DNA of 33,365 nucleotides, taken from IMG/VR virus record IMGVR_UViG_3300034010_000639, positions 1 to 33,365 of that record. One strand, 5' to 3'. Position 1 is the first letter of the stretch; each line of letters starts with the position of its first letter. The notes beneath the pieces were generated by a model, which saw nothing but the letters and a program-made list of their open reading frames with translations, ran no database searches and had not been told where the DNA came from. Positions 8,636-30,891 of this stretch are shown piece by piece. Made by a program: the position numbers and the translations under genes. Origin of the DNA: a virus.

Positions 8636-10413
8636 CAGTACGCCGCCCCGTAGTTCAGCCTCGAGTTCGCTTCCGCGTTGGCCCGGTCAATGCTGGCGCG
8701 TCTGGGCGAAGTGCCACCACGGCGGCCCTGGGCGTTCCAGTTGGCCTGGCGATTGCGCTCCTGGCTGGCCATGCGCTCACTCTCACTCTGCTGGCGTCTC
8801 TGGATCATCTCCTGGCGCCGCGCCTCGGTGGCGAAAATGTCAGCGTCACCAGTCTCCATGAAGTACTGCGACCGGCTCATGCTTCGGCCCATCATCCGCT
8901 CCCGAGCGGCCTTGCGGATCTCGGCAAATCGCACCGGCCCCATGGTCCGTTCGGTTTCCTTATCGATCTCCTGCCGGAGCTGGGACCCGCTTTTGAACCC
9001 TCGACCGGCCAGGCCGTTCTCGATCTGGCCAAAGAGCGTGTCATCGTAGTTCAGCCCCGCCAGACGGCCAACGCCCTCCACGACTCCAGCGAGGGCCAAG
9101 GCACCGGCAACGAACACCCCACCGGCACCAGCGGCGGTGCCAAGCCCGCCCATTGCACCGGTTCCAGCAGAGCCAGCGCCAGGCACCCAGGTTCCTACCC
9201 CGGCCTGGCCCAGAGTGTCCTTGAACACAGAGGTACCAGCGGTGCGAGGCACGCGCCCACGTCGCATCCCGCCGATGAGCCCGCCACCCTGAGCGACCGT
9301 GGCGGCATTGCTCGAGGCAGCAAGTGCAGCCAGTGACCTGGCGGCGTTCCAAGAGGCCGCGATCTCAGCGATCTTGGCCACTTTCATCACACCCCACGTC
9401 GTCACCACACCGGCCCCGATCGTTTCCCAGTTGTTGATGAGGAATCGCCCGGCACCGACGACCCTGGGCATCTCGCGGGCGAGGTCCTTGACCGCTGGCG
9501 TCAGCTCCTTCCCAAGAGCAGGCATCAAGTCTTGCGAGATGGCGTTCTCCATCCGGGTCAGTGCAGCCGAGCCCTGCTCACCCACTTCGCCCAGCATCTT
9601 CACCGCGTCGGCCGACTCGCCAAACTGCAGGAGGGCGTTATTCACCTCATCGAAGGTCAGCGGGTTGGTTTGGCTGCCGATGCGGCCACCAAGGCCCGCC
9701 TGCTGGAGCACCCGGACCAGGTTCACGCCCTGCTCTTGCATGATGCGCAGCTCATCGCCCTGGAGCTTTCCGTAGTTCGCAATCTGGGTGTACTGCACGA
9801 GCGCCCTGGCCATGCCATCAGTGTCCGCGCCGGTTATGAAGCCAGTCGCGATGAAGGCCCGCATGGTGCGCATCAGCATCGCTGGGTCGAGATTGTTGGA
9901 GAGTTGCCGGAGCGAGGTCGAGACCTCCTTCAGCGGCAAGCCCAAAGTGTCGGAGAGCGCCCTGGTTTCGTTGAAGACCCTTCCGCCATCTTGAGCGCCG
10001 TAGCGGTAGCGGAACGAGCGCGCGAGACCCTGCTTCGCGTCGTAGGCTCGCACACCGTTGGCCACCAAGGCCGCCCCACCGGCCACTCCTAGTGCGCCGA
10101 CGCCAGTGCGCAGGTATCCGCCGATACCACCCTGACTCGCCATCGAGGCGATCTCTCGTTTGAGGTTCGAGACTGCACGCTGTGCGTCTCTAGCTGCCTG
10201 GGCTTGTTGCCGCGCGGCCTGCTTGGCGGCTCGGCCGGTGGCGTTGTAGGAGTCGGCCACCGCCTTGTTGCCGGCGACGACGGTGCGGGAAGTGGAGCGG
10301 GATTCGGCAGCGTTCTGACGCGCCACTCTTCGGAGGTCCTGAAGACCGCGCATCACGGTGGCCGCTTGGGCCAGCCTGGCGCGGATAATGACCTGGTTCT
10401 CGCTCACGCTCAC
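8635..10413 (-). CDS. Tail tape measure protein
   Basis: A 592-residue protein, mostly alpha-helical. It has a charged Ala/Arg/Gln-rich coiled-coil N-terminus (about residues 10-95), a Gly/Ala-rich hydrophobic segment (GVGALGVAGGAALVANG), and a tape-measure-like core around residues 130-270 (NETRALSDTLGLPLKEVSTS; then YGKLQGDELRIMQEQG). Further Ala/Gly-rich hydrophobic stretches follow, and an Arg/Gln-rich C-terminus. It sits immediately after the frameshifted tail chaperone, the standard place for this gene. The GTG start at 10413 overlaps the stop of the frameshift product as GTGA. It sets tail length and may pass through the host membrane at DNA entry. At under 600 residues it predicts a fairly short tail if length scales with the protein, as is known for lambda. 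Confidence 0.88.
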   Translation of the reverse strand: MSVSENQVIIRARLAQAATVMRGLQDLRRVARQNAAESRSTSRTVVAGNKAVADSYNATGRAAKQAARQQAQAARDAQRAVSNLKREIASMASQGGIGGYLRTGVGALGVAGGAALVANGVRAYDAKQGLARSFRYRYGAQDGGRVFNETRALSDTLGLPLKEVSTSLRQLSNNLDPAMLMRTMRAFIATGFITGADTDGMARALVQYTQIANYGKLQGDELRIMQEQGVNLVRVLQQAGLGGRIGSQTNPLTFDEVNNALLQFGESADAVKMLGEVGEQGSAALTRMENAISQDLMPALGKELTPAVKDLAREMPRVVGAGRFLINNWETIGAGVVTTWGVMKVAKIAEIAASWNAARSLAALAASSNAATVAQGGGLIGGMRRGRVPRTAGTSVFKDTLGQAGVGTWVPGAGSAGTGAMGGLGTAAGAGGVFVAGALALAGVVEGVGRLAGLNYDDTLFGQIENGLAGRGFKSGSQLRQEIDKETERTMGPVRFAEIRKAARERMMGRSMSRSQYFMETGDADIFATEARRQEMIQRRQQSESERMASQERNRQANWNAQGRRGGTSPRRASIDRANAEANSRLNYGAAY

Positions 10414-11176
10414 CGGTGGCGATTGCGGCGGGCGGCGTCAGCCTTGTTCTGCTTCTCGAGCTTGTTGGCCACGCTCTCTTCAGCCAGCTCGCGCTGATAG
10501 GCGACCCAGCACACCTCGAGCACTTGCTGAGGGGTCCAACCCTGGCGGAGCAGCACGCCAGGGTGTTGATTAGTAGCGGCCAGGGTCAGACGGATTAGGA
10601 GCCATCTGAGCTGGCCTCTTCCGAGTTTCCCCGGAATGATTCCATCAGCGGATTGGGCTTAGCATCAAGCGGCTCGGCATCCACGTTGGAGGCAGTCAGC
10701 GCAGCTTTGGCGATCAATGCCGCCTCACGGATGAGATTGGGATCGCCACCCTTGCGGTGGGCGGTCCGCAAGAGCCGGTAAACGTCATTCCAGTCGGCCA
10801 GGCCACCGACCGTCTTGGTGGCGGTCGAAAGGCCGAGAATCTCGTTAGCGACCATTTCGAGGTGAGCGAAGGCTGCTGGGTGCTTGAAAGCCATGCGCAC
10901 CACGTCGCTGATGTCAGGCGCATGTCCGCCTTCGGGCGGCACATAAGCCGCAAGGATGGCCCGCGCCGAAGCAACAACGAAGTCTGGCACCTTTACGCCA
11001 ATGGCAACACTCAAGTGGTCGGCAAGCTGTTCATCCTTCGTGGGCGTCGGGAAGAGGACAGCAAACTTATCCTCGAGCGAAACCCCAGCGGCGGACAAAT
11101 TGAACACTTCCCCGCCAACCTCAACAACGCGATCTTCTGGCTCTTGGCTGGCCAGCCTTGCGAACGGATTACTCAC
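10410..11176 (-). CDS. Tail assembly chaperone, -1 frameshift fusion (GT-like)
   Basis: The upstream 193-codon frame contains GGGAAAC at 10631-10625, placed exactly as G GGA AAC in frame. A -1 slip after Asn184 continues in the overlapping frame for 71 more codons to TGA 10412-10410, giving a 255-residue fusion. The extension reads LGRGQLRWLLIRLTLAA at its start, then GWTPQQVLEVCWVAYQ, and ends in a basic helix; this has no start codon of its own near the junction and looks like the T part of G/GT chaperones. The fusion product recruits tape measure and tail tube during tail assembly in lambda; the same role is inferred here. The stop overlaps the tape-measure GTG. The frameshift is read from sequence and has not been measured. 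Confidence 0.85.
10595..11176 (-). CDS. Tail assembly chaperone, unshifted product (G-like)
   Basis: A 193-residue, mostly helical acidic protein ending in the Ser/Glu-rich stretch NSEEASSDGS before TAA 10597-10595. It starts at GTG 11176 in a GTGA overlap with the tail tube gene. Its place between tail tube and tape measure, together with the in-frame slippery heptamer nine codons before the stop, identifies it as the short form of the tail chaperone pair. It acts in the cytoplasm during tail assembly and is not expected in the virion, as known for lambda G. There are no recognised catalytic motifs. Confidence 0.85.
   Translation of the reverse strand: MSNPFARLASQEPEDRVVEVGGEVFNLSAAGVSLEDKFAVLFPTPTKDEQLADHLSVAIGVKVPDFVVASARAILAAYVPPEGGHAPDISDVVRMAFKHPAAFAHLEMVANEILGLSTATKTVGGLADWNDVYRLLRTAHRKGGDPNLIREAALIAKAALTASNVDAEPLDAKPNPLMESFRGNSEEASSDGS
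10598..10631 (-). promoter_or_regulatory. Programmed -1 ribosomal frameshift site
   Basis: The slippery heptamer GGGAAAC occupies 10631-10625 on the minus strand and fits X XXY YYZ in the frame of the upstream gene. Six bases after it begins a possible stem-loop: about five pairs between 10616-10612 (GGCCA) and 10604-10600 (TGGCT), with a seven-base loop and one G-U pair. A stem at this distance is typical of stimulatory structures. The overlapping -1 frame is open for 71 codons. Lambda uses the closely related GGGAAAG. Confidence 0.85.
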
Positions 11177-11634
11177 AGGCCCGCCTGGACAATCGTCGGG
11201 ATTTCGCCGTACGCCATGACGTTCAGATCAATCGTGCCAGGGTTGCCGATGAAGTCCATGTCTGGGGTCGGCAGGATGCCCTTGTAGACCATCGTGAAGT
11301 TCGCGCCGGCATCAAGCTGGTTGTTCCCGGTGACAGTGACCTGCACAAGCGGCCCATTGTCCTGGAACTCCTCGAGCAGATTGCTGGGGAGCTTCAGATT
11401 GCCAGAGATGGTGATGGACGGGTTGTCTTTGAGGATTCGGTTCAATGCCGTGCGATCCTGGGCGCCACTAAAGTCGGCAAGCTCCTGGCCACCCGAGAAG
11501 CGCACAGAGTTCGCGCCAAAGGTGACGTCCGGGTTTGAGGGCAGGGAGGCCGGAAACTTTCCAACATCCGCGCCACAGAAGCGCATAGTGATGATGAACT
11601 CGTGAGAGGTCAGATAAACGGGGGCGACGGACAT
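11173..11634 (-). CDS. Major tail (tube) protein
   Basis: A 153-residue, beta-rich protein located just before the tail chaperone, where the tail tube gene lies in siphoviruses. Visible features are alternating strands (FIITMRFCGADVGKFP, VTFGANSVRFSGGQ, VQVTVTGNNQLDAGANFTMVYKG) and a closing strand near PGTIDLNVMAYGEIP. There are no Cys clusters or membrane helices. It starts at ATG 11634 and ends at TGA 11173, overlapping the next GTG. The protein would stack as rings to form the tail tube. I base this mainly on gene order and fold pattern; no single diagnostic motif was seen. Confidence 0.7.
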   Translation of the reverse strand: MSVAPVYLTSHEFIITMRFCGADVGKFPASLPSNPDVTFGANSVRFSGGQELADFSGAQDRTALNRILKDNPSITISGNLKLPSNLLEEFQDNGPLVQVTVTGNNQLDAGANFTMVYKGILPTPDMDFIGNPGTIDLNVMAYGEIPTIVQAGL

Positions 11635-11636
11635 TG

Positions 11637-12074
11637 CTAGCTCTGAGGCACCGCAAGCATCACGCGGTACTCAGTGACCAAGTGCCGAAAGATGCGGGAG
11701 CCGTCAACGTTCGTGCGCACGTTCTCACCAACCCGCTCACATACTAGCGTGTAGCCCTCACTCACGGCCTTCGCCTGGTGGAGCAGCTGCTCAATCCGAT
11801 TGGCCACCCCGTAGGGCGGAATCTCTCCGTTTGAAAAGCTGTAAACCATCAGCATTGCGTGACACTGATGGCGGTGCCCCTGAGCGTTGATGTCGTCCAT
11901 CTGCGGAATGTCGAAAGCGACGGCGGGGTACTCGGTCTGGCTCGGCGCAAGACGACCCGCATAGATGGCCGGGTCAGTGCCGTTCGGCATGTTGGCCACC
12001 AGGCTGAGAAGGGTCGCGTCACCGGAGAGGGTGCTGTAAACCCAACGTTCAATGGCCTGATGCTCACTTGCCAC
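11637..12074 (-). CDS. Tail terminator / completion protein
   Basis: A 145-residue protein of the size and pattern of minor tail completion proteins (DUF3168-like or gpU-like). An N-terminal helix (HQAIERWVYSTLSGDATLLSLV) is followed by YPAVAFDIPQ, a strand (CHAMLMVYSF), a helix (VANRIEQLLHQAKAV) and a final strand with FRHLVTEYRVML. It caps the tail tube before head joining; this role is inferred from the pattern and from its position between the gp10-like and tube genes. The GTG at 12074 overlaps the preceding gene by 11 bases. It ends in a TAG (11639-11637), which matters because it shows TAG working as an ordinary stop in this operon. Confidence 0.7.
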   Translation of the reverse strand: MASEHQAIERWVYSTLSGDATLLSLVANMPNGTDPAIYAGRLAPSQTEYPAVAFDIPQMDDINAQGHRHQCHAMLMVYSFSNGEIPPYGVANRIEQLLHQAKAVSEGYTLVCERVGENVRTNVDGSRIFRHLVTEYRVMLAVPQS

Positions 12075-12519
12075 GCTTCATAGCCCTCTTGATTCCTCGG
12101 TCCACTTCCTGGGGGAAGATGCGCGTCTCAAGCTGCCGTGCAGCGTGCTTCATGTAGAAGCGACCCGGGATGTGCAGGGTACCGCCATCCTTCAGCTCGC
12201 GCGTTGTGCCGTCCTCCACATGACGGGCGTACTCCGTGCCGGTCGAAATGATGCCTTCCCACGGGTCGCGGGGGCGCTCCGCCGTGGGAAATCCAGCCCC
12301 AGGGCGGAAGGCCGACGCACTCACGAATGAGCCCTTGCCATAGACGTAGCTGATGATGCTGTTTCTGAGGAGCCCCGTGTCCACCGGCGCGGCGATCTTC
12401 GCGGCCGTCTCGGCGCGGAACGTGGCAATTTGTACCGCGTTACGCAGCTCCTCATCGAGGTGATCCACCAGGCCATCAAGCTCCGGCACCTTCACTTCGA
12501 CGAACAGTTCAGGAATCAC
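12064..12519 (-). CDS. HK97 gp10-like head-tail / minor tail protein
   Basis: The motif AAKIAAPVDTGLLRNSI is the typical signature of HK97 gp10-like proteins. The rest (EYARHVEDGTTR, then PGRFYMKHAARQL) also fits that family, which acts at the head-tail junction or in tail completion. I choose GTG 12519 as start: it overlaps the previous stop as GTGA and has GGAGG five bases upstream. The frame is open further to GTG 12558, but that would add 13 residues overlapping the upstream gene. From 12519 the product has 151 residues. The C-terminus is strongly basic (RGIKRAMKRGK). Confidence 0.8.
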   Translation of the reverse strand: MIPELFVEVKVPELDGLVDHLDEELRNAVQIATFRAETAAKIAAPVDTGLLRNSIISYVYGKGSFVSASAFRPGAGFPTAERPRDPWEGIISTGTEYARHVEDGTTRELKDGGTLHIPGRFYMKHAARQLETRIFPQEVDRGIKRAMKRGK

Positions 12520-12875
12520 TGGAGCCTCCGGATGACGGCCCGCCCTGCGGTTTGCCACTCCTGCGGGTCGTCCACAGAGTCCACCTCGTAAACGATCCCA
12601 TTCACCTGCACTTGATCGGCCGGAGTGATGGTTACCGACTTCGGATAGGTGAGCTGGTAGCGTTGCCGCGCGATCGGTACCGGCTCGATGTCCGCTACCT
12701 CATCCCCTTCACGGTGCATTATGATGTGGCAGGGGTGCGCGGAAGACCAGGTATCCACGGTTTCCACGTGCCCTTCCGGCGTGGCGCTCGATGCGCGGGT
12801 GAGGAGCCGCAGCTCATCAGGGAGCGCGGTCTCCTGGGCGGCGCTCATCCAGGCCACATCACTCGCTGACAACAA
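12516..12875 (-). CDS. Head-tail connector / head closure protein
   Basis: A 119-residue protein with a beta-rich second half (RYQLTYPKSVTITPADQVQVNG, then YEVDSVDDPQEWQTAGRAVIRRL) like phage head-closure or stopper proteins, which form a ring between portal and tail. The TTG at 12875 is the likely start because GGAGG stands six bases upstream; this makes it overlap the previous gene by 17 bases. GTG 12857 and ATG 12848 are weaker alternatives. Its place between the adaptor-like gene and the gp10-like gene supports the call. Confidence 0.65.
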   Translation of the reverse strand: MLSASDVAWMSAAQETALPDELRLLTRASSATPEGHVETVDTWSSAHPCHIIMHREGDEVADIEPVPIARQRYQLTYPKSVTITPADQVQVNGIVYEVDSVDDPQEWQTAGRAVIRRLQ

Positions 12876-13233
12876 GGGAATCCTCCGCCAGCGTCAGTTC
12901 CAGGGGGACGCCAGAAACCCGGCGCCTTCGCGCCTTGTCGGCCCTTTCCTTATAGCCGTTCACTCGGTCGGTCAGGTCGAACTTCGACCCGTCGCGCTCG
13001 AACGTCACCTGCTGAGAGATCATGGCGGCCTTTCGCTCATAGATCATGGCTTCAGCCAGGTTGAGGTCCCACGTCGGCACCCAGGCGGTATCAGTGGGAG
13101 CGCGGCCCGCGCTGTCCGCCAGTTTGCACTGGCCGAGGAATGTCTCGACGTTCGCATTCGTCACCACCGGCTCTTGATCGGCGGCGGTGCGAAGCACAAG
13201 GAAGTCGCGGGCGGCGGTGAGGGTCACGCCCAC
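12859..13233 (-). CDS. Head-tail adaptor-like protein, tentative
   Basis: A 124-residue protein containing AEAMIYERKAAMISQQVTFE and a basic stretch (KERADKARRRR). It lies at the place of the head-tail adaptor that binds beneath the portal, first in the row of connector genes. The predicted secondary structure is mixed and helical. The start is GTG 13233 or GTG 13227; neither has a strong ribosome site. It ends at TGA 12859 inside the following gene. No family-specific motif was recognised, so the function is inferred from order only. Confidence 0.55.
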   Translation of the reverse strand: MGVTLTAARDFLVLRTAADQEPVVTNANVETFLGQCKLADSAGRAPTDTAWVPTWDLNLAEAMIYERKAAMISQQVTFERDGSKFDLTDRVNGYKERADKARRRRVSGVPLELTLAEDSLVVSE

Positions 13234-13263
13234 AGGTGGCGAGCGTGACCGCGAGAGGCAACG

Positions 13264-13560
13264 TCAGTTCACCATCTTCAACCTCTCATTCACGATTGCC
13301 AGTGCATGTGGCATCCCGACCTCACAGCAACCAGTCAGCTCCACCTGGCCCGCGTAGTCCACGGTGACACGGGCAGAGACCAAGATTGGCTTTCCGCACT
13401 TGCCAGGGCATTGGAAACCACAAAGCGCATCCTTCGCCGTTTGCTCTGCTAGCGCCTTGTTCATCTCTCCTGCCTTGAGATTTTTGGCAGCTAGAGATAT
13501 CTGATGGCGCTGTTGCTGGCTCTTGATGAGGGACGAGACGGTTCTATGCAGCTTATGCAT
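13264..13560 (-). CDS. Small Cys-containing protein, possibly zinc-binding
   Basis: A 98-residue protein with a basic helical N-terminus (HKLHRTVSSLIKSQQQRHQ) and a C-terminal half holding five Cys: CGFQCPGKCGKP followed later by GCCEVG. The arrangement (C-x3-C-x3-C, then CC) suggests a small metal-binding fold. It starts at ATG 13560. It is bounded upstream by a strong terminator and a 66-base gap, so it may have its own promoter or rely on readthrough. Downstream there are 30 bases to the adaptor-like gene. It is not a familiar structural gene. A regulatory or nucleic-acid-binding role is possible but unproven. Confidence 0.65.
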   Translation of the reverse strand: MHKLHRTVSSLIKSQQQRHQISLAAKNLKAGEMNKALAEQTAKDALCGFQCPGKCGKPILVSARVTVDYAGQVELTGCCEVGMPHALAIVNERLKMVN

Positions 13561-13626
13561 GCGCTAAGGTACGGCCGTCGCGCGGCCGATTAAGGGGTTT
13601 ATCGCCGCTTCTCGCACTATTTTCAG

Positions 13627-13660
13627 AAAAAAAATTGCCTCCCCGGACCAGTGGGGAGGC
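13627..13660 (-). terminator. Strong intrinsic terminator after head genes
   Basis: A perfect 8-base stem, arms 13637-13644 and 13653-13660 with an 8-base loop, is followed on the minus strand by AA and a run of eight T (13634-13627). It lies 29 bases after the stop of the last head gene and in front of the Cys-containing gene and the connector and tail genes. It would end or reduce leftward transcription from the head module. Confidence 0.88.
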
Positions 13661-13689
13661 TTGGAGATGAACACACGCTCGTGAGGAAG

Positions 13690-14022
13690 TTACGGTTGGG
13701 TTTCCTCCTCGCCATCCGTCTTGGCGGCTTCGGCGTCTGCGGCCTGCTGTGCAAGGACAACAAGCTCTTCCTTCTTCAGGGCCTTGAGTTCCTTCGGGTC
13801 GCGTCCTGCGGCCTCGAGGTGAGCAACAAGGTCAGTCTTGGTCATGCCAGCGAACTCGCTGGGCGTTTCAGAGTTGGTGGCCGGTACCCCCTTGACTTTC
13901 GGCTCGGGGGCTTCGGCGACCTCGGTGTATCCATCCTTCTTCAGGATGGCGGCCCGTTTCGCGTCCTGGGGGGAGTCCCCCAGGATCACGACGCGAGTAC
14001 CTTCTCGGTTCTTCAGCTTCAT
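13690..14022 (-). CDS. Small head-region protein with HeH/SAP-like C-terminus
   Basis: The true start is ATG 14022, two bases after the previous stop, giving 110 residues; the open frame runs further upstream but overlaps the preceding gene. The N-terminal part is short and basic (MKLKNREGTRVVILGDS). After a Pro/Glu-rich linker there is a helix-loop-helix unit, GMTKTDLVAHLEAAGRD followed by KALKKEELVVLAQQ, resembling the HeH/LEM/SAP-like DNA-binding hairpin found in some phage head and terminase-associated proteins. The tail is acidic. It is the last head gene before the terminator. It may be a head accessory or completion protein. Confidence 0.65.
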   Translation of the reverse strand: MKLKNREGTRVVILGDSPQDAKRAAILKKDGYTEVAEAPEPKVKGVPATNSETPSEFAGMTKTDLVAHLEAAGRDPKELKALKKEELVVLAQQAADAEAAKTDGEEETQP

Positions 14023-14024
14023 GG

Positions 14025-14405
14025 TCAGTTCACCGGAACCGCATGAAGGTCCACCTTTCCAGCGAGGGCGGTCGGTGTGCCGGAAGCTGTGAAAGTGAGC
14101 CAGTGCCCAACCGGCCAGTACGCACAGGCCTTGCCGTTCGCACCGGGGTTCAGCTTGTTGTTCAGACGCCCAGGCGTGGCCAAGCTTTGACCGTCCATGA
14201 GGTTGTCCGCAGAGATTGCCGTCGCAGCAGTGCCGGCGTCGAAGGTTTGCCCTGCGACTGCTCCAGTGATGCTCACCGAGGCAATGTCGATGATCAGAGG
14301 CGTGTCTCCGTCGTTCTGCACCGCCAGCATCCCGCCAGCGCCGGCTACTGCCTTCAGCGTGAACTGAAGCCGCCCCTCCGAGTAGTGATCGAAGAGCTTC
14401 CCCAT
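14025..14405 (-). CDS. Probable capsid decoration protein
   Basis: A 126-residue, beta-rich protein directly following the capsid gene, with TAATG overlap (start ATG 14405). It contains Gly/Ala-rich loops and strands such as LIIDIASVSITGAVAG and HWLTFTASGTPTALAG, and ends in VDLHAVPVN. Size, composition and position fit a head decoration (capsid-stabilising) protein. No sequence motif proves this. An unknown head-associated protein is the alternative. Confidence 0.6.
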   Translation of the reverse strand: MGKLFDHYSEGRLQFTLKAVAGAGGMLAVQNDGDTPLIIDIASVSITGAVAGQTFDAGTAATAISADNLMDGQSLATPGRLNNKLNPGANGKACAYWPVGHWLTFTASGTPTALAGKVDLHAVPVN

Positions 14406-15349
14406 TAGGCCACCAACACTCCGAAGTGGTATCGGGTCGAGGCATCCGGGTTCACCAGATTCGCCGGGTTCGGCTCAGCCCAGCCCAAGCGAATGATGAC
14501 CTGAAGGGCCGCCATGTTCTGCTGGGCAAGGTTGTAGAGGATCGAACCGTCAGGACGCTGGATCGTAGCCTCGGTGAGGATTCGGAATTCCATGTCCTCG
14601 CGGATGCTGTAGACAGCGTTCGCCCACTCTCCCGCAATCATCAACGCGCTCGCATCAGCAGCGCGAAGGTTCTTCTGGAAGTAATGAGGCACCCCATCAA
14701 GGTCGTAGTCAGCGGCTCCTTGCAACCCATTTCTCATCAAGATCGGCTGCTTGTTTTCGTCTCGCAACTGGCGCAACTTGCCCTTCATGGTCAAAAGGGA
14801 CACTGCGGCGGTCACGCCGTAGCCATCTTCTTCCACCTTCGACCAGACCCCATTCTCGCCAAGAATCGCGTCGTACAGGTCGCCACCGCCACCAGTGACA
14901 GTGCTGAGGTCCACATCGTTGCCAGCGGCCACCGCCTTTGTGACGATGCCTTCAGGCCAGCTTGCCGGTCGGTCAGTGCCGTAGAACACAGCACGATCCA
15001 CCTTCTGCATGATGGCTTGAATCAGGGCCGGGCGAGTTTGCCCCCACAGGTCGTAGTCAGCATCCGAAATGACCGTGCGGGGAACCGGCACGACCACAGC
15101 AATCTCTTCGGCGTTGACAAAGACGTTCGACCACACGGCTTGAGTCGTTTGCTGAAGACCGGTGTCGGAAGGGTTGATAAAGTACGCTTCGGGAAGCGTG
15201 CTGAGGACCGGCATGCGCAACTGCGCACGGGTCATGTTCGGGAGCCGCGTCGCAAGTTGCATAAAGATGCTGCGTTCGGCTACGGATTCGGCGATCTGCC
15301 TCGATACCTCTTCAGGAATGAGGGCGGAAGCTTCGTTTCTGCTAATCAT
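14405..15349 (-). CDS. Major capsid protein, HK97 fold
   Basis: A 314-residue capsid protein. Visible HK97-type features are an N-terminal helix and E-loop region (PNMTRAQLRMPVLSTLPEAYFI), the strand WSNVFVNAEEIAVVVPVPRTVISDADYDLW, a long spine helix (PALIQAIMQKVDRAVFYG) and a P-domain and A-domain closing with MEFRILTEA and AALQVIIRLGWAE. There is no N-terminal delta domain or separate protease gene; a scaffold gene lies directly upstream. ATG 15349 lies 12 bases after the scaffold stop and has no clear ribosome site, which is odd for the most abundant virion protein. It ends in TAA overlapping the next ATG. Confidence 0.88.
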   Translation of the reverse strand: MISRNEASALIPEEVSRQIAESVAERSIFMQLATRLPNMTRAQLRMPVLSTLPEAYFINPSDTGLQQTTQAVWSNVFVNAEEIAVVVPVPRTVISDADYDLWGQTRPALIQAIMQKVDRAVFYGTDRPASWPEGIVTKAVAAGNDVDLSTVTGGGGDLYDAILGENGVWSKVEEDGYGVTAAVSLLTMKGKLRQLRDENKQPILMRNGLQGAADYDLDGVPHYFQKNLRAADASALMIAGEWANAVYSIREDMEFRILTEATIQRPDGSILYNLAQQNMAALQVIIRLGWAEPNPANLVNPDASTRYHFGVLVA

Positions 15350-15361
15350 TTGGGTTAAGGG

Positions 15362-15946
15362 TTACTGGAGCCCTGCAGCACGCCGAATGAGTGCGTTCAT
15401 ATCGTCGGCTTTGGGCGGGTCTTGATTTCCGCGTCCCACGTCGCCGCTCCCTCTCGGAGCAGGCGTTTGAGTGGCAAACAGGTTCGGGTGAGCGAGCTTG
15501 ATCGCCTCCCAGTTCGGCTTGCCGTTCATGTCGAAGTGGCCCCCTTCCCGGGCGGCCAAGAATGCCAGTTGAGGGTCCGCACAACCTGCGGCCGGGGCTC
15601 CAGCAAGGAACTCCGCGCGTTGGTTGGCTTCGCTCAGTTGAGCCTGCAACTGTCCCAGTTGAGTCTCGATCTCAGAGCCCTTTTCAGCCTTCTTGGCAAG
15701 TTCTGCGACCTGCTTTTCGAGGGCCTGGCGCGAAGAGCGCTCGGACTGGAGTGCGGACTTGAGGCCCGATGTATTGCCATCGACCAAAGCCTTCTGGCTG
15801 TCGTCGAGGCCCTTGTACCAATCGTCGTAGCTCAGCGTGTTCGCCGGGGGGTCCTGAGTGCCGGTGCCAGCACCCGGGGCCGGGGGTGTCCCACCACCAG
15901 GCGCGCCGGGTGCGTTCCGGTATCGTCTGAGTGCATCTCGCAACAT
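15362..15946 (-). CDS. Scaffolding protein
   Basis: A 194-residue protein with the typical layout of phage scaffolds: a Pro/Gly-rich, disordered N-terminus (residues 11-36), a central coiled coil rich in Gln, Glu, Lys and Ala (about residues 60-115, for example SERSSRQALEKQVAELAKKA), and a short C-terminal segment ending in a helix (ADDMNALIRRAAGL). It lies between the MuF-like protein and the capsid, the usual place. It would guide procapsid assembly and leave or be degraded afterwards. The start is ATG 15946; 31 bases separate it from the previous stop. Confidence 0.85.
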   Translation of the reverse strand: MLRDALRRYRNAPGAPGGGTPPAPGAGTGTQDPPANTLSYDDWYKGLDDSQKALVDGNTSGLKSALQSERSSRQALEKQVAELAKKAEKGSEIETQLGQLQAQLSEANQRAEFLAGAPAAGCADPQLAFLAAREGGHFDMNGKPNWEAIKLAHPNLFATQTPAPRGSGDVGRGNQDPPKADDMNALIRRAAGLQ

Positions 15947-15977
15947 CGGAGGCCCTTGGGATGGGCCAGGGCGGGCG

Positions 15978-17024
15978 TCAACGCGCTACGAGCGAGCGAA
16001 GAGACCGCTCGCGCACTTGCGGCCCCCAGCGCGGATCTTCGAACTCGGCCACATAGTCAGCAAGTGCGAACTGTCCGGACTGATAGAGGTCGAACTTGCC
16101 AGGGCCGAGAATCTCGATCTGCTTGCCCTTCGAGAGCCGCGCGAACCGAGTGGGGCCGTCGCCGATTCCGTCCTCATCCACCACGCTGAACACCACAGCC
16201 GCCGCACACCGACACTGCGGGTGGCGATAGAAGGGCTGGTTCACGGAGTAGAGGCGGCCATGCAAGGCCCAGCACACCGGGCAGGTGCGAATGTCAAGGG
16301 CCGAGATGCGCCGGTATCCGACTGCGCCAAGCTGGGCGGCGTTGGCCTGATAGTTCACGAGCGCGGCGTCACGGTGGGCACTCACGATCTCCGTCCTGGC
16401 GATCACGTTGGCCTTCTGATTCAGCTCCCGGGCGGCGTTCACTACGTCGCTGGCGATCCCTGGCTCCTCGAGCCCCGTGCGCACCCTTCGGCGGATTGCG
16501 GCGGCCACCTTGCGCGGGTTCTGGCCTTGCCCCACGCCCTCAATCAGACTGTCCTGCACGGCCTGGCGAAGCTCCGCGGGATACCGACCCAGCAGATCCG
16601 CGAGCGGGCTTCCATCGCTCAGCCGACCCACCATGTTCTCGAGGGCGGCCACCGGGAGCCGGTTCCATTCGGTTGAGACCCGCAGCTTGTCCGGGTGGGC
16701 GGCATACGCGAAATCATAAGCGGCCGCGCCCGCCATCGCAACTGCCTCCGCCTGGGCGCCAGTAATCAGCGCGGTGGACAGGTCCGACACCTCGCCCATC
16801 TGGATGGCCACCTGGTCGAGAAGCCGCTGAAGGCGCTCGGAGCGAAGAAGCCACGAAACCGGAGCGTCCGTGCCCGATTCGGCCAAGGCATCAAGGAGAG
16901 TGAGGAGCTCGAGCAGCAGAACGTCTTCGAGGAGCTGATACGCCTGCTGCATCCCGAGGATGGCAACGGCTTCGCGCTCGATGATGCGCTGGCGATACTG
17001 GGCCGAGATCTCCTGAATAGTCAT
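15978..17024 (-). CDS. Minor head protein, MuF / SPP1 gp7-like
   Basis: A 348-residue protein. The C-terminal third carries the MuF head-morphogenesis domain: ART-E at 209-212 (VIARTEIVSAHR), then CPVCWALHG with Cys248, Cys251 and His255, and HPQCRC with His268, Cys271 and Cys273, a probable zinc site. The N-terminal part is helical and probably contacts the portal. It starts at ATG 17024 in a TGATG overlap with the portal gene. In relatives a few copies enter the procapsid with the portal and help DNA injection. After the domain there are about 70 residues with no recognised toxin or enzyme signature. Confidence 0.88.
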   Translation of the reverse strand: MTIQEISAQYRQRIIEREAVAILGMQQAYQLLEDVLLLELLTLLDALAESGTDAPVSWLLRSERLQRLLDQVAIQMGEVSDLSTALITGAQAEAVAMAGAAAYDFAYAAHPDKLRVSTEWNRLPVAALENMVGRLSDGSPLADLLGRYPAELRQAVQDSLIEGVGQGQNPRKVAAAIRRRVRTGLEEPGIASDVVNAARELNQKANVIARTEIVSAHRDAALVNYQANAAQLGAVGYRRISALDIRTCPVCWALHGRLYSVNQPFYRHPQCRCAAAVVFSVVDEDGIGDGPTRFARLSKGKQIEILGPGKFDLYQSGQFALADYVAEFEDPRWGPQVRERSLRSLVAR

Positions 17025-18370
17025 CAGGGCACTTCAGGGGCGCGGGTGAGCCGGGCGAAGGCACGCTCCTCGCGCTGGAGTGCGGCCTGTTCGGCCTCAG
17101 TGGCCAGCTTTTGCGCCTGGGCGGCATCCACGGAGAGGGCAAGCTGGAACACCATGGCCTTCGGCACCCCAAGACGGTCGAGCACAGCGCCAAGCTCCGC
17201 GCGCTCAAGCTCTGTGACCGGCGAAGTGTCGCGCCAGACCGCGTTCACCTCTTGGCCGGTGGCCGTGCCCACGATGTCCTCCCACACGTTGCCAAAGGTG
17301 ACCTGTCGGTCTTCCACCTTGGTCTGCAGCGGGCTCTCCGTCACTCGAAGGGCCGCGCCGCTCGGCACCTCGCCCTTCTGGCCGAAGAAGTAGGCCGGCA
17401 CCGAGGAAACCCGCGCCACTTCCATACGAGTGCTCTCGGCTACCGCAAGGTTCCCCTGGAACTCGCCACCAGGAAGCTGGCCAAAGTTCGCGTCCGGGTT
17501 GCCTGACACCCAGAGCTTTTGAGCAACCCAGGCTTGGTCTGGCTTGCCTGTTTCAGGGTTGATGGTCTGCTCAATCCCGGTGGCAAATCGCTGAGGATAG
17601 GCGCTGGCCTCCATGCCAACCACCAGGTCGTACAGAGACTTGTTCAGGAGGTCTTGCAAGGGGATGACGGGCTGGAGTTCCGAACGCCCAAACTCACCCG
17701 GCCCTGCGCCGTTTGCCCAATGGAACATAGGCACACGGCCAAAGGTGTGGAGTTGATTGGCTTCTTCGCCGTCTGCATCGAACGGGATCAGTGTGGCGTT
17801 GGCCAGGCCGCTGAGGGCATTCACCTTGTTCTGCGTAATGTATCGCTCCACACGGTTCTCGAAGTAGACCGTCACGCGGGTCCGGCGCTCATTCTTGGTG
17901 CCAACCTGCCACACCTTCACTGCGGCGATCATGCGCTCGGAGTCGCTGTCGTCGTAAACCGGGATGATCTGCCAAGGCCGCTGACGGAAGAGCCTTGGGC
18001 CTTCGTCCGTCTCCCACAGAATGGCGTAGGCGTCTCCGTAGAGCACAGCATCCCGGTGGATCTGGCGTTGCTTCGCATCGAACCGTGAAGCGGTCAAGAA
18101 CCGGGCAGCATTTTCCTCCACAGGGTCGAAGCTGTCCACGATTAGCCGCCCGGAGATCGTGTCCACCACGAGCGGGCAGAGATTGTCCGCAAGGTGCTGC
18201 AACGCACCCTGGAACCGCTCCCGGAACGCGCTCGAGACGTAGTTCATGGGGTGCTTGCCCGTGTAGTACTCGTCGGCCTTCTTATAGGTGAACACCCGGT
18301 TGGCAAGAGAGTCCACGCCGTCGCGGATCAGCGAGCCGTGTTCAAGTTGGGCGAGGGTGGCCGGGAGCAC
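17024..18370 (-). CDS. Portal protein, SPP1 gp6-like
   Basis: A 448-residue protein with the pattern of siphovirus portals: an N-terminal helical part with YYTGKHPMNYV, a repeated wing domain (VVDTISGRLIVDSF, DAVLYGDAYAILWETDEG, VTVYFENRVERYI), a core with the stem helix (LLNKSLYDLVVGMEASAYPQ) and the tunnel-loop region, ending in a long Ala/Glu-rich helix (AAQAQKLATEAEQAALQ). It forms the dodecameric DNA entry channel. I use GTG 18370 as start; it lies 31 bases after the TGA that closes the terminase remnant. The ribosome site for it is weak: GGGAGG lies about 20 bases upstream. Confidence 0.85.
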   Translation of the reverse strand: MLPATLAQLEHGSLIRDGVDSLANRVFTYKKADEYYTGKHPMNYVSSAFRERFQGALQHLADNLCPLVVDTISGRLIVDSFDPVEENAARFLTASRFDAKQRQIHRDAVLYGDAYAILWETDEGPRLFRQRPWQIIPVYDDSDSERMIAAVKVWQVGTKNERRTRVTVYFENRVERYITQNKVNALSGLANATLIPFDADGEEANQLHTFGRVPMFHWANGAGPGEFGRSELQPVIPLQDLLNKSLYDLVVGMEASAYPQRFATGIEQTINPETGKPDQAWVAQKLWVSGNPDANFGQLPGGEFQGNLAVAESTRMEVARVSSVPAYFFGQKGEVPSGAALRVTESPLQTKVEDRQVTFGNVWEDIVGTATGQEVNAVWRDTSPVTELERAELGAVLDRLGVPKAMVFQLALSVDAAQAQKLATEAEQAALQREERAFARLTRAPEVP

Positions 18371-18400
18371 GAGGCCGAGTGGCGAGAATGCCCTCCCAGG

Positions 18401-18523
18401 TCAATAGTTGGAGGAGACGACGCCCACCGACCTGGCCGGGAACAGATGCGTGAATCCCCACACCAGCGCGTCCAGGCGGTCGGGGCTCTTCATGCCCTTC
18501 CCGGGCTCCCACTCGCACATCTA
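18401..18523 (-). pseudogene. Amber codon and orphaned C-terminus of terminase
   Basis: The TAG at 18523-18521 is followed in the same frame by 39 codons to TGA 18403-18401. They begin MCEWEPGKGMKSPDRLDALVW and end in SSNY. This is the natural C-terminus of the large terminase: related enzymes carry a Gln or Glu in the LED-x-MC position, so a single CAG to TAG change explains the stop. Joined, the protein would have 434 positions. The piece has no ribosome site of its own, though the next codon is ATG. Confidence 0.85.
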
Positions 18524-19705
18524 GTCTTCGAGCTCCGCAAACACGCCCATGTGGTGCATCTTCTCCTGCTCGTAGAGGCTTGAGATCGGCTCCGCGCGCG
18601 CCTCCTTGGCGTGGCTGGCCCATACGAGCACCACAGGGATGGTCGGATCAATCGTGTGGATGGTGTGCTTCACCATGGCCCCGCCCTGGTTGGCTTCGGC
18701 CACGATCACATTCGCTCCGTGGTCGTGGTACGCCTTAACTGCCGCGACGGCCCATGTCTGCGGGGAGCCTTGGCAGCTCACGTCGTCTAGCACGATGCCG
18801 TGACCCTTGGCAGTGCGGCCGCACACCACAATCCCGTGCTCGGCTACGTCTTCTGATTTCTTGTCCGAGGCGCCGGGGTCCACAGCCACCGCGATCCTTA
18901 CGATCGGGTCCTTCTCGAAGGGCCTGGTGATTCGGCCTTCCTCGAGCCACGAGCGCCGCCACAGGGCTCCGGGGTTGTCGTCAAGCAGCTCGCCCTCGAG
19001 CTCCTGTCTTCCCAGCCGCGTGCCCTTATATCGTTCCTCGAGAGCCTGGATGAAAGACTTGGCTAGGTTGGCCTTGTTATCTTTCGTCGCACCTCGCGTG
19101 ATCACGACGCTGGGCAACTTCAGTGCATCCTTGAAGGTGGTCGTGGGCTTCGGCGTCGAGGCGATAGCGATCTGCGGATTCTCTCCCAGTCGGCAGCCAA
19201 ACACCAGGTTACTTAGGGCTTCGGGATACCGCCATGCAGCAACCTCATCCGCCACTGCTTTGTGGCATTGAGGGCCACGTAGCTGGTCAGGTTCCGCCGC
19301 TGAGAAGCAGAGCGCGGTGCTTCCGTTCGGCCAGGTCAGCCGGCGATCATTGGCATTCCACTTGGGGCGGAACCATGGTGGCGACCAGGCGAGAATGCCG
19401 GCCGGCCCTTTCACAATCACGTCTCGGTAGTCCGCAGCGGTGCGCGCTACGATGTGGATGATGGTGCCAGGCTTCTGAGCCCACTTGATCACCAGCTCGG
19501 CGATGGTACGGGTTTTGCCCCAACCACGGCCCGCCTGGATGACCCAGGCGAACCATGCTGCACTCGGAGCCTGCTGGTCAGGGCGACCCCAGAACTCCCA
19601 GTCGTAATGCAGAACCTCAAGCTCTTCTTCCGTGAGGTTTGCAAGGATGGCCGCCCTTTCAGCGGCCTTCAGCGAGGCGAGCCAGTCGCTCGTGAATCGT
19701 CTCAC
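18521..19705 (-). CDS. terL: Terminase large subunit, cut short by an amber codon
   Basis: The packaging motor and nuclease. Walker A is at residues 59-65 (GRGWGKT), Walker B is VADEVAAW with Asp153/Glu154, the coupling motif is STPKPT (183-188), and the RNase H-like nuclease shows Asp276 (VAVDPG) and Glu337 (VIVAEANQGG). GTG 19705 is supported by GGAGG six bases upstream; it overlaps the small-subunit gene by 47 bases. A TAG at 18523-18521 stops translation after residue 394, within a segment (FAELED*MCEWEPG) that is continuous in this family. The missing part is coded in frame just downstream and includes the SPDRLDALVW block, which should supply the third metal-binding acid. As written, nuclease function is expected to fail while ATPase motifs remain. 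Confidence 0.9.
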   Translation of the reverse strand: MRRFTSDWLASLKAAERAAILANLTEEELEVLHYDWEFWGRPDQQAPSAAWFAWVIQAGRGWGKTRTIAELVIKWAQKPGTIIHIVARTAADYRDVIVKGPAGILAWSPPWFRPKWNANDRRLTWPNGSTALCFSAAEPDQLRGPQCHKAVADEVAAWRYPEALSNLVFGCRLGENPQIAIASTPKPTTTFKDALKLPSVVITRGATKDNKANLAKSFIQALEERYKGTRLGRQELEGELLDDNPGALWRRSWLEEGRITRPFEKDPIVRIAVAVDPGASDKKSEDVAEHGIVVCGRTAKGHGIVLDDVSCQGSPQTWAVAAVKAYHDHGANVIVAEANQGGAMVKHTIHTIDPTIPVVLVWASHAKEARAEPISSLYEQEKMHHMGVFAELED

Positions 19706-20276
19706 GCAAGGCCTCCGCTCGGCCCATGGTCATTCCTGCTTCTGCATTGCTAAGCCCGTAGGAATCCCGCTCCATGCGCACTACGCGCTCGATGGTGCCC
19801 GCCAGCGTGCTGAGGTGGCCGGTCAGGCTATCCCCACTTCCGAGCTTCAGAACCACCATCGCTTCGATACGCTCCTCTTGGTTCCCGTTCAGGTACTGCT
19901 CGACCAGGTCCAGCACTCGATCTACATTGAGCCTGAGCCGCAACGTGAGGCTCCTGTGGCTGGCAATGATGTCCACCTGTCTCTGGGCCGCTCTCTCGAC
20001 CACCGCCGGCTTGCCATGAACTTTGTTCACATCCTGTTCACAAGATGCGCCGTGTTCACTTTCTTGTTCACTAGCGTCGAGTTCAGCGAGCTTCGCCGCG
20101 CGGATGCGCTTAACCCGATCCGTGGGGTCCTTCACCCAGCCTTCGCGGGTGATTCGGTTCTGAATCGTGGAGCGGTGCTTGATGCCATGCAGGTCGCAAA
20201 GAGCCTGGAGCGTGTACGCCCCAGTCTCATAGTCGGCCCTGATCCTCTGCCAATCGGGTTTGGCTCGAGTGCCCAT
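19659..20276 (-). CDS. Terminase small subunit-like HTH protein
   Basis: The start is ATG 20276 (MGTRAKPDW) in a TGATG overlap with the gene before, giving 205 residues; the open frame upstream only shadows that gene. Residues 8-45 hold a helix-turn-helix of the type seen in small terminases (RADYETGAYTLQALCDLHG, then KHRSTIQNRITREGW). An acidic linker and a long C-terminal helical region with ERVVRMERDSYGLSNAEAG follow, likely the oligomerisation part. It lies just before the large subunit and would recognise the pac or cos site. Similar HTH proteins also occur as non-terminase regulators, but the place makes the terminase role the best reading. Confidence 0.8.
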   Translation of the reverse strand: MGTRAKPDWQRIRADYETGAYTLQALCDLHGIKHRSTIQNRITREGWVKDPTDRVKRIRAAKLAELDASEQESEHGASCEQDVNKVHGKPAVVERAAQRQVDIIASHRSLTLRLRLNVDRVLDLVEQYLNGNQEERIEAMVVLKLGSGDSLTGHLSTLAGTIERVVRMERDSYGLSNAEAGMTMGRAEALRETIHERLARLAEGR

Positions 20277-20632
20277 CAGAGCTTGACTTCGATCACGCCG
20301 TGGAAGTGGTTGCCGTACCGATCGTCGTTCACCTGCACCGGCACGGAAGTCTGCACATCGATCTCTTGTGCCCACTCGAACATCTTGAGATCAGGGATGC
20401 CATCGAGGTGCACAACGGCTCGGGCGAAGGGCTTCTCACCAATCTCGGATTGGTTTAGCGAGACAAGGATGTCAAACGGGCCAGGGAGCGGTAAGGCCCT
20501 CGCGTAGTAGCCTTCGCCTGGCAGATCGTACACCCGATCCACCGTGCCTGTCTTGGTGTAGCCGATCTTGAAGATCAGCAGGTTGATGAAGGCGCGGAAT
20601 CGGTAGTCACCGCGGATGCGGACGCTGGCCAT
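20276..20632 (-). CDS. Conserved-looking phage protein, unknown
   Basis: A 118-residue protein, alternating strands throughout, with a basic N-terminus (MASVRIRGDYRFRAF) and an ending VNDDRYGNHFHGVIEVKL. It is coupled to the small terminase gene (TGATG). It starts at ATG 20632, the first gene of the leftward packaging and structural block, and faces a small plus-strand frame across 27 bases. A TTGACA hexamer lies 29 bases upstream on the minus strand (20666-20661), but I see no convincing -10 box. No family was recognised. Confidence 0.65.
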   Translation of the reverse strand: MASVRIRGDYRFRAFINLLIFKIGYTKTGTVDRVYDLPGEGYYARALPLPGPFDILVSLNQSEIGEKPFARAVVHLDGIPDLKMFEWAQEIDVQTSVPVQVNDDRYGNHFHGVIEVKL

Positions 20633-20659
20633 GAAGGCTGGTGGGAAACTTCTTTACCT

Positions 20660-20911
20660 GTGTCAACAAAGCGGGCAGCATGGGCGTCTGTACAAGATAT
20701 GGAGCGCCAAATCCAAGTGAACGATCAGGTGGTTCACACCGCGTCAGGCCAGCACTACTATGTTGAAAGGGTGGTTGGGGACAATGTTTACTGCCGAGCA
20801 GTGGGAGACCGACAGCCAGATATGCCGGAAGTAGCGACGTTCAGCGCGCATGACCTGCGTACAGCTATGGCTGCCCGTAACCAAATCATCGCAGATTCGC
20901 CAGGTCAGTAG
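20660..20911 (+). CDS. Small plus-strand protein, weakly DUF2158-like
   Basis: A frame of 83 codons from GTG 20660, or 70 from ATG 20699, ending in TAG 20909-20911. The core VNDQVVHTASGQHYYVERVVGDNVYCRAVG resembles the short beta-barrel of DUF2158/YodC-like proteins (a V-x-L-x-SGG-x-x-MTV-type pattern followed by a CRW-like strand), though conserved residues are only partly met. Neither start has a clear ribosome site. It stands alone on the plus strand between leftward modules. It could be a chance open frame. Confidence 0.4.
   Translation: MSTKRAAWASVQDMERQIQVNDQVVHTASGQHYYVERVVGDNVYCRAVGDRQPDMPEVATFSAHDLRTAMAARNQIIADSPGQ
20661..20668. repeat. TRTCAACA intergenic motif, copy 1
   Basis: TGTCAACA stands between the divergent starts near 20632 and 20660. 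The minus-strand reading contains a TTGACA hexamer (20666-20661), so it may be part of a promoter or an operator. The same octamer family recurs at 21716, 30841 and 30885. Confidence 0.4.
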
Positions 20912-21026
20912 CAACCTATCTGTGCCCTGCACTCATTCCGGCCCCTCCCAGATAGTGGCCGCCGGCCAGTGCACTTTAAGTATTGGCTGGCAGTATGCCA
21001 GCTGGGCGCGGAAGGGGCCAGCCCTC

Positions 21027-21248
21027 TTAACGGTTGGCCCAGCGAGCCATGGCCGCCTTCTTGGCAATAGCCTTTCGCTCTTCACTGGAGAGCTTCGCCG
21101 CGCGAGCCTTGCCACCCTTCAATCCACCGAGTCTCCCAAGGCTGACTGCAGCAGGATTCTTTAGTGGAACCCCCTCGCATTGCAACGGTTCTGCGATCCG
21201 TCGGGGTTTCCCCGAAGACTTGGACATGGGCAGCGGTTGTGGCATCAA
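21027..21248 (-). CDS. Small basic GRxGGxKGG-type protein
   Basis: A 73-residue, very basic protein. Its second half, AAVSLGRLGGLKGGKARAAK and then LSSEERKAIAKKAAMARW, is a pattern seen in many short phage and chromosomal proteins of unknown function; a nucleic-acid-binding role is often supposed from the charge. It starts at ATG 21248 (or the next codon, also ATG) and ends in TAA 21029-21027. It lies apart from its neighbours, with 115 bases on the left and 214 on the right, so it is likely a single-gene transcript. Confidence 0.75.
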   Translation of the reverse strand: MMPQPLPMSKSSGKPRRIAEPLQCEGVPLKNPAAVSLGRLGGLKGGKARAAKLSSEERKAIAKKAAMARWANR

Positions 21249-21361
21249 TGAACGGACATCTAAAACCGCTAAATGGTCTCAGCCTTCTTGCCTGGCTGAG
21301 AACCTGTAGGCACGATGAACCCTCCGCCTCATGCTTGAGCGGTCTAGGACTTTGGGACCTT

Positions 21362-21388
21362 TTAGCAGTCTCGCGGCTACTCTGCTAA
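21362..21388. repeat. 7-base inverted repeat in gene-free gap
   Basis: TTAGCAG (21362-21368) and CTGCTAA (21382-21388) form a perfect inverted repeat with a 13-base G+C-rich spacer. It lies in the 214-base gap upstream of both the basic protein (minus) and the 48-residue plus-strand gene, so it could be an operator or a hairpin in a leader. There is no T-run on either side, which argues against a terminator. I see nothing else of note in 21249-21462. Confidence 0.4.
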
Positions 21389-21462
21389 TCGACTCGCGTC
21401 TTGAATGGGCGGGCATGGGGCCCTAGTCGAAAAGAACCCCGTCTGCCCAGCGAGAAAAAAAA

Positions 21463-23090: not shown

Positions 23091-23420
23091 CTATGAACCG
23101 TTGTTTTGCAGGAGCCAGGCCGCGGCCTTCCAGTCGATCACTGGCTCCGTCTTAGTGGTCTCGATGGTCGAGCCATCAGTGGCCCGGCGCCTGGTCACGG
23201 TCACCACGTCGCGCGGCTGAGAGGCCTTCTGCACGGCTGCAAGGCAGCGGAGTCGAAACTCCGCCTCTGCCCGCTTGCACTTCATCTGGAAGTCCGGGTC
23301 TTCCCTGATGAACGTGGCCACCTCGGCGAAAGGCACCTGAGCGAAGTTGGCCGCATGGATGCGACTGAGCCCCGCCCGGAGGCCCTGCAGCACCCAATCA
23401 ATCTGCTCGTCGGTGAGCAA
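23091..23420 (-). CDS. Small helical protein, possibly terminase-small-like
   Basis: A 109-residue protein. The pattern FIREDPDFQMKCKRAEAEFRLRCLAAVQKA, a mid-region of charged residues, and the ending DWKAAAWLLQ resembles short HTH proteins found as small terminase-like or packaging-associated factors. TTG 23420 is well supported: AAGGAGG lies six bases upstream. It overlaps the end of the methyltransferase gene by 23 bases. It ends in TAG (23093-23091), a second normal use of amber as stop. Since another small terminase candidate sits next to terL, its role is open. Confidence 0.6.
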   Translation of the reverse strand: MLTDEQIDWVLQGLRAGLSRIHAANFAQVPFAEVATFIREDPDFQMKCKRAEAEFRLRCLAAVQKASQPRDVVTVTRRRATDGSTIETTKTEPVIDWKAAAWLLQNNGS

Positions 23421-24729
23421 GGACAGCCTCCTTACCAGTCGCCGCTTCCCATCGCCTTAGAGCCACGTCGACAAACACCGGTTGCAGTTCCATAGCACGG
23501 CACTTCCGCTGGAGGTTCTCCGCTGCCATCAGCTGCGAGCCAGATCCGCTGAACAGCTCGAGCACGATGTCCCCCGGAAGGGTGTGCGTCCGCATCGGAA
23601 TCATGAATAGCTCGAGAGGCTTCTGAGTCGGGTGCTCATTGCCAGAGACCGTTTTCCGGCCGTCGTGGTCGACAAACCAGACCGACTTCGGGCGATCGGC
23701 ATTTGCATCCGCCATTCGAGGCTTGTTTCCGCGCCTCCAGCCGTGCATACAGGGCTCGTGCTGATAGTGATACATGCAGTAGGTGATCACCGGAACAGGC
23801 TTCACCCATATCACGCACTGATGGAACAGCACGCCCAGCTCTTCCCACAGCTTTTCGATGATGCCCCGCCTGGTTTCAGCGTGCCACACGTACCACCCAG
23901 CGTTTGCGTCGGTGTGGGCAATAGCGTTTTCGAAGACCTGCCGCAAGAAAGCCGGTGCCTCCTTGCTACTGATCTCATTGTAGAGGTGGCTCCAGTCCTT
24001 CCCTTCTCCCGGGCGATTGTCGCCGTCGTAGTCCACGAAGTACGGCGGGTCGGTGGCAAAGAGCTGCGCCTTCTCGCCGGCCATCAGGAGGGCCACATCC
24101 TCGGGGCTTGCTGAGTCACCGCACATGATGCGGTGTTCGCCGCACTCCCAGATGTCACCGCGCTGAACTCGCAGGTCCGTGATCTCTTCAGGGGCAAGGG
24201 GCTCGGCGTCCACCACCTCCTGCTCCACCAACGGTGACGCGCGAAGCATCTCGGCCAGGTCGTCATCATTGTAGGCTGTGAAGGCCATCAGATCCGAGAT
24301 CCGCAGGTCCGCGAGGAGCTTCGACAAGATCTCATTGTCATTGGAGCCAAGCTCCGAGGTGCGGTTATCGGCGATGGCGAAGGCCGTGGCTTCTTCCTCG
24401 CTCAGGTGATCGATGTTGATGATGGGGACCTGCCAGTCTCCGTCTCGCTCGATCACTCCGGACGGAGGCTTCTCTTCCTGCGTTTTGAGCTCTCTAAGGG
24501 CCTTGAGCACGTGGTTGCCCGCATAGACCGTGCCACCGCGAACGCGCATGGCTCCGTTGAATCCAAAACGACTAAGGGAGGTTGCAATGGCATCCACCGC
24601 GCCACGGCGATAGTTGCCAGGCCACTCTGAAAGAGAGGCGAGAGGGACAAGCTGAATGTGTTGCGTCGTGTCCACATTCTCATATAAAAGCCGATCTCCT
24701 TCATTTGTGACCATGGCGCGAGAGCGCAT
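23398..24729 (-). CDS. ParB-domain / DNA methyltransferase fusion
   Basis: A 443-residue fusion. The N-terminal part (about residues 25-125) is a ParB-like nuclease-type domain (LVPLASLSEWPGNYR, then YAGNHVLKAL and AFAIADNRTSELG). The C-terminal part is an N6/N4 DNA methyltransferase of beta order: DPPY at 227-230, HPTQKP at 366-371, and the SAM-binding ELFSGSGS at 391-398. Such fusions are common in phages. It would modify adenine or cytosine in phage DNA, perhaps against host restriction or to regulate; no paired restriction enzyme is present. The start is ATG 24729, overlapping the sigma-like gene by 29 bases; ATG 24714 is an alternative. Confidence 0.88.
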   Translation of the reverse strand: MRSRAMVTNEGDRLLYENVDTTQHIQLVPLASLSEWPGNYRRGAVDAIATSLSRFGFNGAMRVRGGTVYAGNHVLKALRELKTQEEKPPSGVIERDGDWQVPIINIDHLSEEEATAFAIADNRTSELGSNDNEILSKLLADLRISDLMAFTAYNDDDLAEMLRASPLVEQEVVDAEPLAPEEITDLRVQRGDIWECGEHRIMCGDSASPEDVALLMAGEKAQLFATDPPYFVDYDGDNRPGEGKDWSHLYNEISSKEAPAFLRQVFENAIAHTDANAGWYVWHAETRRGIIEKLWEELGVLFHQCVIWVKPVPVITYCMYHYQHEPCMHGWRRGNKPRMADANADRPKSVWFVDHDGRKTVSGNEHPTQKPLELFMIPMRTHTLPGDIVLELFSGSGSQLMAAENLQRKCRAMELQPVFVDVALRRWEAATGKEAVLAHRRAD

Positions 24730-27876: not shown

Positions 27877-28319
27877 AGCTCGCCCCCTGCGCTTACGTAT
27901 TCATAGATGGCTTGGTCCAGATCGGGCCAACCATTCCACTCGATAACTTCCGGCGCATAGCTGGCAGCCTCTCTGATGGCCGCGCCCCAGTTTTGTGCAT
28001 CTGTAAGGTGGCTGTAGTAGCTCACAAGGCTAACGGGGCGGCAGATATTCGGCCCCATGAGGGTCACCTGCGCGCTGCCGTATCCTGGCCAGTCCGCCAG
28101 CGCTCCTTCTTTCCCTAGCTCCTCATCAGTCGCATCCCTCTTGTGATAGATGCGCTTGCACCTAGCGTGCGCAAATGCTTCACCTTGCTTACCACCGCTG
28201 GCTTCAGCCCACTGACTGCACATGTTTGCCTTAGCCTTTGAAGGAGTTGGCGCCCAGATTTCCAGGTGAGTTCCAGCCAGGTAGATGTCCCCTTCGAGCC
28301 AACAGTCGTAAAGCTTCAC
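27873..28319 (-). CDS. Unknown early protein
   Basis: A 148-residue protein with many Trp and Tyr residues and an N-terminal strand region (MKLYDCWLEGDIYLAGTH), a helix (SKAKANMCSQWAEAS), and a C-terminal AIYEYVSAGGEL. GTG 28319 overlaps the ParB-like gene's stop as GTGA, and its own stop overlaps the RusA-like gene. No domain is recognised. The middle contains EELGKEGALADWPGYG and no apparent catalytic motif. Confidence 0.6.
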   Translation of the reverse strand: MKLYDCWLEGDIYLAGTHLEIWAPTPSKAKANMCSQWAEASGGKQGEAFAHARCKRIYHKRDATDEELGKEGALADWPGYGSAQVTLMGPNICRPVSLVSYYSHLTDAQNWGAAIREAASYAPEVIEWNGWPDLDQAIYEYVSAGGEL

Positions 28320-30853: not shown

Positions 30854-30859
30854 AACAGC

Positions 30860-30890
30860 ACAGTACCTTTACTAGTAGAGGATTTGTCAA
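30860..30890 (-). promoter_or_regulatory. Candidate leftward early promoter
   Basis: TTGACA at 30890-30885 on the minus strand matches the -35 consensus. TACTGT at 30865-30860 may be a -10 box after 19 bases, a long spacer; GGTACT at 17 bases is the other reading. The start point would then fall almost on the GTG at 30853, giving a near-leaderless message. The palindrome lies between the two boxes. Confidence 0.45.
30866..30881. promoter_or_regulatory. Candidate repressor operator palindrome
   Basis: CCTTTACTAGTAGAGG is a 16-base inverted repeat with one mismatched pair and a perfect TACTAGTA centre. It lies in the 38-base gap between the repressor ATG and the divergent HTH gene, inside the spacer of the candidate leftward promoter, where bound repressor would block polymerase. 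Confidence 0.6.
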
Positions 30891-30891
30891 C

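Follow-up and report, generated by a model that had tools for sequence, protein, structure and literature searches.

An amber codon in a phage large terminase gene, probably a nonsense change private to one record

In the 33,365-nucleotide stretch of viral DNA analysed here (the window), the gene for the large terminase (TerL) meets an in-frame TAG shortly before its conserved end block. This raises the question of whether the codon is read through, marks the natural end of a shorter or divided protein, or interrupts a gene that is otherwise normal. Our analysis makes it very likely that a nonsense change private to a single record has produced the TAG, reflecting either a dead-end phage or prophage genotype or an error in the consensus, and that no new mechanism is needed to account for it.

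The amber codon and the frame beyond it

The minus strand reads GAG CTC GAA GAC TAG ATG TGC GAG TGG across the site, with the TAG at 18523-18521. Under genetic code 11 the TerL open reading frame occupies 18521-19705, encodes 394 amino acids and stops at this TAG; if the TAG is taken as a residue, the frame adds 39 codons (MCEWEPGKGMKSPDRLDALVWGFTHLFPARSVGVVSSNY) up to a TGA at 18403-18401. A check of the open reading frame and its translation found the TAG, its continuation, the TGA and every coordinate and peptide of the original prediction to be exact. The read-through product matches the Pfam domains Terminase_6N (E 1e-19) and Terminase_6C (E 5e-11), and as the latter match spans residues 274-419 it crosses the stop at codon 395. 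Since three relatives with 80-83% identity go on for 40 amino acids in the same frame, and all 88 of the relatives described below align across the stop, the in-frame continuation is evidently not a product of chance. The protein shares with other TerLs both domains (PF03237, PF17289), the invariant motifs and a place between the small terminase and the portal; the allele in the window differs from them in ending 40 residues early, the full TerL elsewhere in the phage population having 434 residues.

Table 1. Coordinates and properties of the features discussed. Positions are those of the window unless a locus or contig is named.
Feature	Position	Strand	Remarks
In-frame TAG	18521..18523	-	TerL codon 395; the near-identical contigs L090 and L091 have CAG
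TerL residues 1-394	18524..19705	-	ATPase domain and the greater part of the RNase H-like nuclease domain; predicted first codon GTG
Conserved C-terminal block, untranslated owing to the TAG	18401..18520	-	39 codons and TGA; invariant S407, P408, R410, D412
Terminase small subunit, intact	19659..20282	-	phrog_1206, E 3.3e-18
Portal protein, intact, predicted start	17024..18370	-	phrog_104, E 1.6e-64
Repressor-like gene	30682-31617
L090 (IMGVR_UViG_3300028429_000378)			7,565 bp; gap-free end-to-end alignment; differs from the window only at 18523
L091 (IMGVR_UViG_3300031787_002599)			8,875 bp; gap-free end-to-end alignment; differs from the window at 18523 and 10440
CUA tRNA of L029	L029:2335-2409		ARAGORN; Rfam tRNA, 53 bits; about 590 bp upstream of TerL
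TerL of the L029 contig	12068-13333	-	in-frame TAG in the N-terminal region
Tail sheath of the L029 phage	L108:2575-4011	-	in-frame TAG at codon 24, in a homologue-aligned region
Portal of the L029 phage	L108:10435-12486	-	in-frame TAGs at codons 184 and 279, in homologue-aligned regions

Codon 395 and the C-terminal block in relatives

The read-through TerL protein, used as a query, yielded 80 IMG/VR loci and eight loci from bacterial or archaeal genomes. The codon aligned with the TAG encodes glutamine (CAG or CAA) in 68 of these 88 relatives and glutamate in the remaining 20; it is a stop in none. Two loci, L090 and L091, have 100% protein identity to the read-through TerL, and both carry CAG at codon 395; the further difference between L091 and the window, GCC versus GCT at 10440, is a silent one for the small reading frame that we infer at that position. 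The loss of a glutamine codon that had been proposed, CAG to TAG, is therefore seen directly, as a C to T change on the coding strand that is private to the window's record among the records found by searches that may have passed over some very close ones. The original prediction had named two outcomes that would speak against it. The first, CAG at this position, is indeed seen, though the samples concerned are other ones containing this phage; functional relatives that end at LED with no conserved block after it did not appear, all 88 aligning past the codon. When the tail protein and the ParB-like protein served as queries, no further near-identical contigs were found, so that the known cover extends over 10313-21452; searches of phage and plasmid collections gave no protein match of at least 60% identity and no long DNA match. 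Among the TerL genes of relatives, those at L061:2024-4129 (+) and L089:891-2444 (+) carry in-frame intein-like inserts, which start with Cys and end with HN before a Cys; the insert of L061 lies inside the nuclease domain.

The end block beyond the TAG was expected to be conserved and to carry an acidic residue, and an alignment of 28 sequences bears this out: all four residues listed for it in Table 1 are invariant, the Asp among them. The Walker A region (G59 R60 G61, G63 K64 T65) is likewise invariant, as befits an ATPase domain, and so are D276, E337 and D412, the mapping of the sequence on to solved TerLs covering the ATPase part only. An AlphaFold model of TerL (mean pLDDT 86.5) places the last confident helix at residues 409-421, and Foldseek matches the model to the solved TerLs of phages D6E, Sf6, T4 (gp17) and HK97. 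In the TerL of phage G20c the metal-binding residues D294, D347 and D429 have been described as indispensable for catalysis (PMC5389553). The counterpart of D429 in the window's TerL may be D412 or D409. The nuclease domain is complete to its last acidic residue in the read-through frame and in the sister records, and incomplete in the 394-residue product. With the invariant residues and the last helix lost, and given the indispensable acidic residues of G20c, we infer that the 394-residue product should lack nuclease activity.

TAG as a stop in the window and as a sense codon in a relative

TAG stops are present at 11637, 23091, 31681 and 32590 of the window, and those at 11637 and 23091 align with the TAA and TGA stops of relatives, indicating that TAG is a true stop in the window. 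Neither ARAGORN nor Rfam found a tRNA in the window, which may be incomplete, and the three close relatives lack a CUA tRNA. Among conserved genes with relatives, TerL alone contains an in-frame TAG, where recoding would be marked by several. The earlier case against general TAG recoding is upheld by the stop alignment, and together with the lack of a tRNA in the window this leads us to reject such recoding here. Phages that read TAG as glutamine (translation table 15; for example Crassvirales, PMC11210395) do resemble the window in that a late gene contains an in-frame TAG; the window differs from them in its single such TAG, its use of TAG as a stop, its lack of a CUA tRNA and the CAG of its sister records. 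A CUA suppressor tRNA is found in about half of TAG-recoded phages (375/715; PMC11210395).

A more distant member of the same TerL family presents a contrasting picture. The record IMGVR_UViG_3300036715_002805 (34,606 bp, 63% GC; loci L029, L108 and L109) encodes its own CUA tRNA, which ARAGORN labels tRNA-Pyl from the anticodon alone, and pairs it with in-frame TAGs in TerL, the tail sheath and the portal (Table 1) and with more in a head protease and a tail protein, within the parts matched by PHROGs. Many of the TAGs in an open reading frame list made with TAG as glutamine precede the probable start codons or belong to spurious frames, and they were counted only within aligned homologous regions. 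TAG ends just one of 45 mechanically selected open reading frames in this record, versus 13 of 41 in the window. On these sequence features the L029 phage appears to be genuinely TAG-recoded, and it displays what TAG recoding looks like within this TerL family; none of it is seen in the window.

Mutation, error or readthrough

The suggestion that the TAG is suppressed or read through does not fare well against this evidence. A CUA tRNA supplied by the host or by a missing part of the phage could insert a residue and give full-length TerL, and the L029 phage provides a precedent in the family, but the lack of such a tRNA in the window and the close relatives, the fact that TAG ordinarily acts as a stop, and the CAG of the sister records make this quite improbable. 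We give still less credence to a conditional switch, in which CAG and TAG versions would co-circulate in a single phage population and TerL would reach full length only where the host or stage provides a CUA tRNA; tRNA-dependent completion of this kind may happen in the L029 phage. It is equally hard to credit that the TerL is naturally short, or is split with the end block translated by a restart at the ATG directly 3' of the TAG. That ATG is suitably placed, but it corresponds to an ordinary Met following Gln or Glu in many relatives, every one of which is a single continuous chain, and the sister records have no stop; the one-chain relatives and the CAG records lead us to reject a split or reinitiated TerL.

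The private nonsense change that we favor can be understood in two ways. We propose that the window represents a probably temperate, tailed phage, the rest of whose population makes a normal TerL of 434 residues; the temperate lifestyle is suggested by the repressor-like gene and by weak matches to integrases found in two relatives. Were the base real, translation would stop after residue 394, leaving the RNase H-like domain without its last helix and D412, and the genotype would be unable to cut and package its own DNA unaided, which would make it either an uninduced prophage or a dead-end genome. Otherwise the TAG would be a consensus error. The chance that a real mutation has produced a defective phage or prophage genotype in the sample, one without TerL nuclease function, is in our estimate just under even: the change is a clean C-to-T transition and a silent prophage of a probably temperate phage could carry it, but comparable genes show no further decay and no integrase was found in the window. 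A consensus or sequencing error in the window's record we would put at nearly the same chance, considering that the sole difference from L090 over 7,565 bp looks lethal and falls in an essential gene, and that the codon is a sense codon in all the other records, but also that a single-base error would be uncommon if the consensus was assembled at good depth. In the head and packaging genes, a stop would result from 3.2% of single-base changes of any kind and from 4.7% of C-to-T or G-to-A changes, and the probability of at least one nonsense change among the two observed differences is roughly 6-9%; one nonsense change in two differences is thus unremarkable and requires no special process.

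Amber (nonsense) alleles of essential phage genes are a staple of classical phage genetics. The window resembles them in that a single base turns CAG into TAG in an essential gene whose sister alleles are intact, and differs in coming from a metagenomic record, known as sequence only, in which an error is about as likely as a mutation. The finding matters little beyond annotation. It would be wrong to cite the record as an example of a recoded phage or of a naturally short terminase; it offers a clean example of near-identical contigs from other samples resolving a suspicious stop.

Three contigs from related phages (G003, G004 and G005; TerL identity 79-83%) also served for comparison with the open reading frames of the window. 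TerL is the only gene of the window that ends early relative to all three, each of which reaches its TGA 40 amino acids later. Where another gene has a full-length relative, its end point is nearly always the same or a few residues off; the few larger differences (9-24 amino acids) concern genes that are weakly conserved or matched in part, and they do not resemble truncations. A decaying prophage with multiple broken genes is not seen among the genes comparable with these contigs.

Several other features of the window were observed. Two ParB-like proteins are encoded at 23398-24729 (-) and 28316-29761 (-), of which one is a fusion with a DNA methyltransferase (phrog_498, E 1.7e-104). At the left end, positions 1-540 are unmatched at the DNA level by the three related contigs; similarity to G005 begins at 541, and G005 carries a tRNA-Arg (TCT) at 63-138, near the junction with window position 541, which is perhaps an attachment site. 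An in-frame slippery heptamer, GGGAAAC, occurs at 10625-10631 (-), at the end of the open reading frame 10595-11176, and at the identical position in G004 and G005. The -1 frame after it adds 71 amino acids just before the tape-measure gene, an arrangement that looks like the programmed frameshift of tail chaperones of the lambda gpG/gpGT type.
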